DNA of 64,000 bases from Opisthocomus hoazin (taxonomy: Eukaryota > Chordata > Aves > Opisthocomiformes > Opisthocomidae): positions 5,890,001 through 5,954,000 of the forward strand of contig NC_134440.1 in NCBI RefSeq assembly GCF_030867145.1, given 5' to 3'. The notes under the pieces were generated by a model. That model was not told where the DNA came from, did no database searches, and saw only the letters and a program-made list of their open reading frames with translations. Positions 796 through 62,309 of this stretch are shown in pieces (position 1 is the stretch's first letter; the number at the start of each line of letters is the position of its first letter). Both the position numbers and the translations under genes were made by a program.

Positions 796-939
796 CCCTC
801 CAGCCTTAATGAGTTTGCGCCTGAATTCCTTGGTGGGGTTGTTGAAAGTCAGTTTCTCACAACGAAGGTGGTTCACAGGTGGATTTCCCTCCAAGTTTAA
901 GAACAGGTCATATGTGAAACAAACCTTTTTAGGCTCCTC
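796..939 (-). CDS. MLLT1: MLLT1 coding exon 4 (end of YEATS domain)
   Basis: This exon is 144 bases in phase 0 and encodes residues 93-140, ending [10 protein letters not shown]. The human ENL sequence differs by a few substitutions here (for example Tyr for Arg near the end). The donor GTAAGT lies at 790-795. The next exon is beyond the window. Confidence 0.95.
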
Positions 940-3900
940 CTAAAAACAAGAAAGACTTTGGGAAAACAGAAGCAAGCACACAAAGGCAGAGGATTCAGTC
1001 ACTCCTGAAAATCTCAAATAAACCTCTGAGAAAGCGTTGCATTCATAAAGTTTTTCACCATGAGATCACAAAGCTAGAAAATAAACTATTTGTGCCTGAA
1101 GTTAACATACCATTCATCACAAACTCAGGCACGGCTTTTCACCGCAAAAGAAATGCACAGACAAGGATACTGACTGACTATTGTCTGTTTAAAGTCGTTC
1201 CAGTCATCCTAGGAAAGCAGATTCACAAGCTTTATCCACTACACTGTTTTCACTGACATTCAGATCCTATCCTTCCTTTGGGAAGCAACTGAACTGGAAG
1301 TATCAATATTAAGAAAAGCATAATCCTTTGTTTAGAAAGGGAACAACTTCCAAACTCACAGGATCTCTGTGGGTACTGAGAAAAGATTAAACGCAATGGT
1401 AAAAGGATGACTCATTTTTGTAAAATCCTTTTCAATATGCATATTGCAGGGGCTGAATGGGAAGAGATCCTAGGCTTTTGAACTTTCCAAGGGCACTTTC
1501 ACTGAAGAAATCCGGAGTTTCTATGCATGGTGGGGATCATCTGCGCCTCACTGGTTTTGTTCCACCTGCTGCAGAAGCACAGCGAACACTCTGCATTTGC
1601 AGCACAGAATGGAAGAAATCGCTTCCTTTTTGTCTCCTGAAATTGCAAATATTGCACAGTACTCATGTATCACAAATAACAGTATGACGTTTCCTGGTAT
1701 TATCTTGTATTCTGCATTTCAAGAGGCAAATTCAAAATGTGGCAGAAGAGACTCTCCCTGCAAACCACACAGAGCCTACAGTACATTGAGTATTTACATG
1801 AATGCATCCCACATGCCTCATTCAATGCGCAACATCAAGCAGCTGCACAGCAGTCTCTTCCACAATTCATATCCAGCAGCTTGATTTCCTGGTGGAGTTG
1901 CATTGTTGTATGGGAACAGACGCCGCAGGCTTTTAGCCCAAGCCATTAGATTTGCTGAAAATAGGCTGAAGCGTCAAACGGCTTCAGACCACACCGATTC
2001 CTGCTGTTTGCTTGGTGGATACTAACATTGCTAAAGAAGCCATTTCTCGTACAAACTAAACCCCTAGTAACAAAAAAGTGTGGTAACCATACCTGGTTTC
2101 CATCAAAGTCAGTACCCTAAACCCACCTGGGAGTCAAGGACTTGGGTCCCAACTCCCCAAACAGGGGAAGGCAGACATCTAAGCAGACACATACAATAGA
2201 ATCGTCTCCCATTAATAAGCAAGCACACACCACCAACACGAGGGTCTTCAGACCCTCTTTTGGAAAAGTCCTGAAGAATCTACGCACACTTGACAGGGTT
2301 CAATGTCAACTAAAACACGTGAATAGGAAGAAAAATACTTGCAAAGTACACTGCCTTGTCATTTTCCTCTTTTCTGCAACCATTCTCATTAACTGAATCA
2401 TTAGTGAGCTCTGCATGTGAGTGCTTACACTGGAGTTCAAACAGCAGCTGTAAAGGGTCCCTCAAAGTCTAATAAACTTAAATGAAGGATGAATAGAAAT
2501 CCAAATGTGGCCTAAGAATGGTTTCTAAAACGCTTTTCCTAGTTTACAACAACGAATAAAATGATCTTGGACATATTAGCAAAAGCAGGCTTTAGTCAAA
2601 AGCTGTTACACTATCACATTATCAGAGCTCTGCTTTGTCATCTATCTGCTTGCAGAGCAGGAGAGGGGCAGCAGATTCTTTTCCCTTTTATCTTAGATAT
2701 CCCATTTTTTTATATAGACTCAAATGCAGAGAACCTCCCAAATATTTATTGTATATCTGTTGAAGAGCTTCCACTTTTTGTAAAATTAAGACAGTTTTTC
2801 AGTGAGATTTTTCTCCAACTCAGAAATCACAACCGCCCTGGGAACCGAGCCCTAGCCAAGTACCCTGATCATTAAAATCTCCTTTGTATCGCCTCAGGCC
2901 ATCAGAAGCCCCCCACCCAACCGAATAGTTAAGATTACAGCACTTCTAAAAGAACGAGTACAAAAGTCTCAAAGCAAAAAGCTACAAATAAACATTCTTT
3001 CCTTTACTGCCTTCACAGACAGCTAATGATTACAGCTCCAGACACTCCAAAGCTTAACCCATCCGGTCCTCTGTTAACGGTTCTTCCCTCCAAACAACCA
3101 TCAAGGGCGGGGGGGGGGGGGGGGGGGGCGGGGGGCGGGGGGGGGGGGGGACACGGCACGGAAAAAAAAGGAGGGCGAACCCCAAGGAAAATCTCTCTCA
3201 ATTGACCTGGACCTACACATCCTCTAACTTTAAACGGAAAGCCACACTGAATCCACAGTGCCACACTTCAAAGCCTTTCTAAATAACACGCTGGGATCTA
3301 CATACCCTGCTGCCTGGAACTGCAACAGAGCGTGGGTACTTTTTCACCCTACAAACTTGGGTCCAGGCAGTCTGCTTTCATACTGCAACACCACTTTACG
3401 TACTCCTGCTACACAGGCAAGCCAAGCCTCACTCTGCGTTGATTCCACCTTCTGATATTCAACCCTTGATGTCAACGAGTAAAACTAAAAATGGGAGACT
3501 TACTTTCTGTGGATATTTTGTTGCTCTCCGAGACCCTAAGCTTTGCTAAGGGGTCTTACTTCCAAGAAAGGCTTTAGAAAGGATAGAACAGATCCATTTC
3601 TAACTGGTATTGTGGTTATTCAGATTAAAATTCAATGGTCCATTTGGACGTGAAATGGCTAACCTTGTATGGGACCTCTGAGCAAGCCACCTTAGAATCT
3701 CATTTTATATCTGCCCCCTAAATCTCATATGTCAGAGAAGTAAACTAGAAACCTGTACCACAAAGCTAGGGCCAAGCACTTCTTTGCAGCTGCTGTAGAT
3801 TTCTGTCCATCCAGTGAATCCCCTACTCCACCTCCAGTCTCCAAAGCTGAGTACATTACACTTTATCTTTACTGTTTTCCAGCTTCCTGTCTGCACTGAC

Positions 3901-62000: not shown

Positions 62001-62309
62001 TGGGCTGCTAGGAGGGCGTGGAAAACAGGTCGTGTCTCGTGCTAGCCCAGGCTTTTCTGGGTGCCATGAGAAGCTGGGCAGGGTGGATCTCCGCTCCGCA
62101 ATGGTGCCCGTCCAGTCTGTGCTTGTTCGCCAGCAGCCGTGGCTGACGCGGCGTGAAGCTGCAGCTCGAATGCTGTTCCGCAAGACTGAGCAGGGCTTCA
62201 CGCTTCGCCTCTCTTTGCAGACCTTCCACGAGGGGAAAAGAGAAAACGAACTCTAGAGGATGAAGGAGAGGAAGATCCGGAAGACGAAGAGGACGATGAG
62301 GATGACTGA
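56037..62309 (+). CDS. ANP32B: ANP32-family acidic nuclear phosphoprotein, avian ANP32B type; complete, seven exons
   Basis: The coding segments are 56037-56090, 58475-58624, 59112-59234, 60277-60475, 60771-60892, 61325-61379 and 62221-62309, 792 bases and 263 residues, all GT-AG. Residues 1 to about 150 are the leucine-rich repeat domain ([11 protein letters not shown] at 66-76, [11 protein letters not shown] at 90-100, [11 protein letters not shown] at 115-125), closed by the [17 protein letters not shown] cap. Residues about 155-263 are an Asp/Glu tail with the nuclear signal KRKR at 241-244. Family knowledge: ANP32 proteins bind histones, inhibit histone acetyltransferases and PP2A, and shuttle RNA-binding partners. 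Positions 129-130 are Ile-Asn, as reported for chicken ANP32B. There is one EAPDSD copy, so the exon duplication typical of avian ANP32A is absent. The start has strong context (AGGATGG). Orthology to mammalian ANP32B is doubtful, because the flanking genes are those of human 19p13.3. Confidence 0.95.
56091..58474 (+). other. ANP32B: ANP32B intron 1 (2.4 kb)
   Basis: The first ~1.2 kb continues the CpG island. I see no alternative exon with family resemblance. Confidence 0.85.
58475..58624 (+). CDS. ANP32B: ANP32B coding exon 2
   Basis: This exon is 150 bases in phase 0, residues 19-68, first leucine-rich repeats ([20 protein letters not shown] onward). The acceptor is GTTGGCAG and the donor GTGAGT. 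Confidence 0.96.
59112..59234 (+). CDS. ANP32B: ANP32B coding exon 3
   Basis: This exon is 123 bases in phase 0, residues 69-109, containing the canonical repeats [17 protein letters not shown] and [20 protein letters not shown]. The acceptor is TCTGGCAG and the donor GTGAGT. Confidence 0.96.
60277..60475 (+). CDS. ANP32B: ANP32B coding exon 4 (last repeat, cap, start of acidic tail)
   Basis: This exon is 199 bases, residues 110-175 plus one base. It carries [16 protein letters not shown] (Ile129-Asn130) and the QLTYLDGF cap, then [20 protein letters not shown]. The donor is GTGAGG. Confidence 0.96.
60771..60892 (+). CDS. ANP32B: ANP32B coding exon 5 (acidic tail)
   Basis: This exon is 122 bases, almost all GAA/GAG/GAT codons, residues 176-216. 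The acceptor is TTTTGGTAG and the donor GTGAGG. The sequence is repetitive but in frame and free of stops. Confidence 0.93.
61325..61379 (+). CDS. ANP32B: ANP32B coding exon 6 (acidic tail)
   Basis: This exon is 55 bases, residues 217-234 plus one base, all acidic apart from one Gly and one Ala. The acceptor is GACTCCAG and the donor GTGAGT. Confidence 0.92.
62221..62309 (+). CDS. ANP32B: ANP32B coding exon 7 (nuclear signal and stop)
   Basis: This exon is 89 bases. It completes Asp235, then [20 protein letters not shown] and an acidic end, with TGA at 62307-62309. GEKRKR is conserved in the family. The acceptor is CTTTGCAG. Confidence 0.95.

Follow-up and report, generated by a model that had tools for sequence, protein, structure and literature searches.

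The ANP32 gene and its neighbors

The DNA analyzed here (the window) is a stretch of 64,000 nucleotides from Opisthocomus hoazin (C27:5890001-5954000), and positions below are those of the window unless a contig is named. It carries an intact ANP32 gene on the plus strand at 56037-62309. Reading of the splice sites gave seven exons with an open coding sequence of 792 nt, encoding a protein of 263 aa, and all six of the introns were GT-AG. With human ANP32A and ANP32B as tblastn queries, the exon matches spanned 56037 to 62306 on the plus strand, and every exon was supported by both tblastn and the splice check. Exon 1 (56037..56090, 54 nt) begins with the ATG at 56037, read from the sequence itself, and is followed by exon 2 (58475..58624, 150 nt), exon 3 (59112..59234, 123 nt) and exon 4 (60277..60475, 199 nt). 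The acidic tail is encoded by exons 5 (60771..60892) and 6 (61325..61379), with exon 7 (62221..62309) encoding a KRKR motif and ending in the stop codon at 62307-62309.

The product has the architecture of the ANP32 family, in which an N-terminal leucine-rich repeat (LRR) domain precedes a long acidic tail. Pfam LRR_9 matched with 52.5 bits, above its cut-off of 30.5, D and E make up 70% of residues 151-263, and the KRKR motif occupies residues 241-244. Residues 129-130, encoded in exon 4, are I and N, as reported for chicken ANP32B (PMC6548507; PMC6557625), which counts towards an avian ANP32B (ANP32C-like) identity. A minisatellite of 20-bp units (54870-55680, about 40 copies) occupies the region from approximately 1.2 kb to 0.4 kb before the start codon. 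No Pfam match at E <=0.01 was obtained for 9 of the 339 window ORFs, all situated between 42 and 64 kb.

Neighboring genes were sought by tblastn across a contiguous 264 kb, comprising the window and 100 kb on each side, using provisional human protein sequences as queries. MLLT1 exon matches were found on the minus strand at 793-939, 10408-10497 and 13214-13399, with further matches extending left beyond the window, and Pfam YEATS matches fell at the same spots (C27:5900408-5900497 and 5903214-5903324). Five exon matches to ACER1, also on the minus strand, spanned 30358..40463 (ranges of the tblastn matches), with Pfam Ceramidase matches at this spot within C27:5921302-5930445. The interval from the first MLLT1 exon match to ACER1 contains CT-rich tandem arrays (17390-18354) whose units measure 10 to 85 bp.

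Past the right edge of the window, ZNF414 was located on the minus strand at about 68798-70322, by a tblastn match alone, and MYO1F, likewise on the minus strand, at 78302-90185. These start 6.5 kb and 16 kb past the ANP32 gene, respectively. The MYO1F label, which comes from the MYO1F query, is provisional as against MYO1E; a TH1 myosin domain was found at this spot by Pfam, independently of tblastn. At the far left of the 264 kb stretch lies an RFX DNA-binding domain on the minus strand, also found by Pfam, which we have taken as RFX2. CLPP, a neighbor of ACER1 in human, gave no match in the 264 kb (tblastn, E up to 1e-3), and nothing credible was found in the same stretch for RAB11B or the HNRNPM RRM.

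The gene order that a preliminary description of the window had put forward, MLLT1 (minus), ACER1 (minus) and ANP32 (plus), was thus confirmed by tblastn, Pfam and the splice-checked gene model. It also agrees with a chicken chromosome 28 list in a table of a 2024 GWAS (PMC11507135), which gives RFX2, ACSBG2, MLLT1, ACER1, ANP32B, ZNF414, MYO1F and ADAMTS10. That table is a list of candidate genes rather than a map, but the sequence of its entries is the order found here (RFX2, MLLT1, ACER1, ANP32B, ZNF414, MYO1F), with MLLT1 and ACER1 preceding chicken ANP32B as they precede the window gene.

Other ANP32 loci and the NANS site

The genome (1.48 Gb, 415 contigs) was searched twice, with the window protein and with human ANP32B as queries, each search giving 38 matches at E up to 10. 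Strong ANP32 matches were found at three loci only: the window gene on C27, ANP32A on C10 at 31.49 Mb and ANP32E on C30 at 2.60 Mb. The best match to human ANP32B was an ANP32A exon (E 1.2e-24), followed by the window gene (3.2e-19) and ANP32E (2.4e-17). Two further matches were first exons, one of the window gene (window-protein query) and one apparently of ANP32A (human ANP32B query), the latter sitting 16 kb upstream of ANP32A. All remaining matches had <=43% identity and E values no better than 2e-4, and seem to belong to other LRR proteins. At the ANP32A locus on C10, the exon sequence that is duplicated in birds occurred twice (second copy of 27 residues; 1181-1261 of the extracted C10 segment). 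This insertion is described as common to almost all birds (PMC6557625) and supports the avian source of the genome. A Pfam LRR_9 search of the genome gave 11 matches with none of the three ANP32 loci among them; since it was blind to a split gene in this way, we relied on the protein-query searches.

NANS was matched on C41 at 61.53 Mb, and XPA on the same contig at 38.70 Mb, about 23 Mb from NANS. Human ANP32B lies at 9q22 adjoining HEMGN and NANS. Judged by the position of NANS on C41, the window gene on C27 does not occupy that site, and the preliminary description was correct in holding that its locus differs from that of mammalian ANP32B. As far as tested, there is no HEMGN/NANS block just beyond the right edge, the genes there being ZNF414 and MYO1F.

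We found no ANP32 match near NANS in either genome search (E up to 10). The human ANP32B query gave no match anywhere on C41, and the only one obtained with the window protein was a weak LRR match at 67.66 Mb, 6 Mb from NANS (E 2.7). The 7.6 kb preceding the start codon of NANS held no match to human ANP32B at E up to 0.5. With chicken ANP32A as the query a single match appeared there (E 0.88), containing an internal stop and lying on the strand opposite NANS; this was attributed to chance, as 40 of 60 Markov-shuffled copies reached its score. Within the reach of the two genome searches and of this 7.6 kb, where no credible match was seen, the presence of ANP32 at the NANS site, whether as a gene or as a remnant, was rejected. 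A whole-genome search with Pfam TrmO_N, the domain of TRMO (a neighbor of human ANP32B), gave no matches, although this may be a miss of the exon-by-exon search.

Placement within the ANP32 family

A tree was constructed from nine LRR sequences over 162 columns, with AU tests under LG+G4. Human A, human B and chicken A rest on PDB entries; the window gene, together with A and E without exon 1, came from the O. hoazin genome; mouse B, human E and fly were entered as provisional sequences. In the best tree the window gene was sister to the two mammalian ANP32B sequences, weakly (aLRT 86, UFBoot 44). Grouping of the window gene with human B alone was rejected (AU p 0.002), as was grouping with mouse B alone (0.0003), so that it did not branch inside the mammalian ANP32B clade as represented by these two sequences, one of them provisional. 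The window gene and mammalian B as sisters were allowed (AU p 0.68–0.69), and so were the window gene with A (0.14), the window gene with E (0.20–0.21) and A with mammalian B without the window gene (0.32). The tree therefore supports a position outside mammalian ANP32B for the window gene among the sequences compared, and is compatible with several deeper orders of A, B, E and the window gene.

The published history of avian ANP32B bears directly on this placement. Long et al. (2019, eLife, PMC6548507) describe a clade that unites avian ANP32B with Xenopus ANP32C and with unnamed proteins from non-placental mammals, with ZNF414 and MYO1F adjoining the avian, Xenopus and marsupial genes, and on this evidence present avian ANP32B as a paralog of mammalian ANP32B. 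The same two genes adjoin the window gene, which in this and in I129 N130 is like chicken ANP32B, with no difference seen in the features compared. Mammalian ANP32B resembles the window gene in its LRR domain and acidic tail, but differs in chromosomal site and, in human, has N129 D130. Birds are reported to have lost the human ANP32B ortholog and placental mammals the avian one, non-placental mammals keeping the gene, and a short human relict is described as lying between ZNF414 and MYO1F rather than next to ACER1 (PMC6548507). Neither MLLT1 nor ACER1 occurs in the main text of that paper. Human ANP32C, which is intronless, nearest ANP32A and unrelated to the avian clade (PMC6548507), shares just the symbol with Xenopus ANP32C, the relative of the avian gene.

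Set against this record, the preliminary description was partly supported: its observation stands and its interpretation was mainly right. The claim of a separate paralog gains from the chromosomal site, from PMC6548507 and from the rejection of a place inside mammalian ANP32B, but as the AU test allows a sister relation to mammalian B, sequence alone does not prove it here. The loss that it assigned to mammals applies to placental mammals and was too widely drawn, because non-placental mammals keep the gene (PMC6548507). MLLT1 and ACER1 do adjoin the gene, as it had emphasized, but the published markers are ZNF414 and MYO1F, just past the right edge. Nor was the argument from synteny a fresh one, having already been made in the published analysis to which it alluded (PMC6548507).

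A true ortholog of mammalian ANP32B that one lineage moved between the ACER1-ZNF414 and NANS sites would account for the weak sister placement in the nine-sequence tree (AU p 0.68) and for the genome searches giving no other ANP32B candidate; it is contradicted by Long et al. (PMC6548507), and we regard such a move as very unlikely. Still less probable, to the point of being hardly credible, is that the gene is a processed or recent duplicate of ANP32A inserted at the locus. Over the compared LRR exons it has 79% identity to the O. hoazin ANP32A; the corresponding values are 74% for human ANP32B and 68% for the O. hoazin ANP32E. A recent copy, however, would show an identity far above 79%. In addition to the six GT-AG introns, exons 2 and 3, with their phase-0 ends, agree in length and phase with those of ANP32A and ANP32E in the same genome (a comparison of these two exons). 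This intron structure refutes a retrocopy, as the preliminary description had argued from the seven exons. The window gene is very probably an ordinary avian ANP32B, that is, an ANP32C-like paralog, a copy from an early duplication, at the conserved site between ACER1 and ZNF414-MYO1F. The gene model, position, neighbors and other ANP32 loci were observed here, whilst papers are the source for the paralogy, for the losses and for a 1R/2R origin, as well as for gene order outside O. hoazin.

Origin of the locus and naming of the gene

Members of the neighboring gene families were mapped by Pfam genome searches. The families had been picked for their human paralogs (MLLT3, ACER2, RFX3 and MYO1E), which makes their distribution support and not a blind test. 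YEATS members were found on C27 and C41, and also on C4 and C8; Ceramidase members on C27 and C41, and also on C1; RFX members on C27, C41, C10 and C30, and also on C40, C8, C2 and C1; and TH1 myosins on C27 and C10, and also on C9, C26, C32 and C4. The recurrence of these families on C41, C10 or C30 is fitting for a 1R/2R origin of the locus. Near-equal matches to the RFX DNA-binding exon were seen at C40:37739676-37739861 and C41:7798046-7798234; guessing from contig numbering and size, these are perhaps the W and Z copies of RFX3.

A published study already assigns ANP32 to a 1R/2R paralogon, one member of which lies on chicken Z, and states that the family retained all four copies, which define the paralogon in chicken (PMC6354393). 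Three ANP32 copies were found in O. hoazin against these four, and that statement is hard to reconcile with the lack of an ANP32 match on C41.

The window gene is very probably an ANP32 copy that dates from the genome duplications of early vertebrates and has stayed at a conserved site, with ACER1 on one side and ZNF414-MYO1F on the other. On the published account, birds retained this ANP32C-like copy and lost the ortholog of mammalian ANP32B, with placental mammals doing the reverse. The predicted product of the window gene combines leucine-rich repeats with a strongly acidic tail and with KRKR as a basic motif, and by analogy with other ANP32 proteins would be expected to bind basic proteins in the nucleus, as a partner or a chaperone.

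The distinction between avian and mammalian ANP32B has been in print since 2019 (PMC6548507), so that the finding is an already known and ordinary one. The view of the preliminary description that the symbol ANP32B misleads is supported, a commentary having suggested that the avian gene is perhaps better called ANP32C (PMC6557625). The choice of name is of consequence, since a shared symbol makes it easy to treat the bird and mammal ANP32B as one gene in comparisons, a point also printed in 2019 (PMC6548507, PMC6557625), and the window presents one more bird carrying the known avian ANP32B locus.
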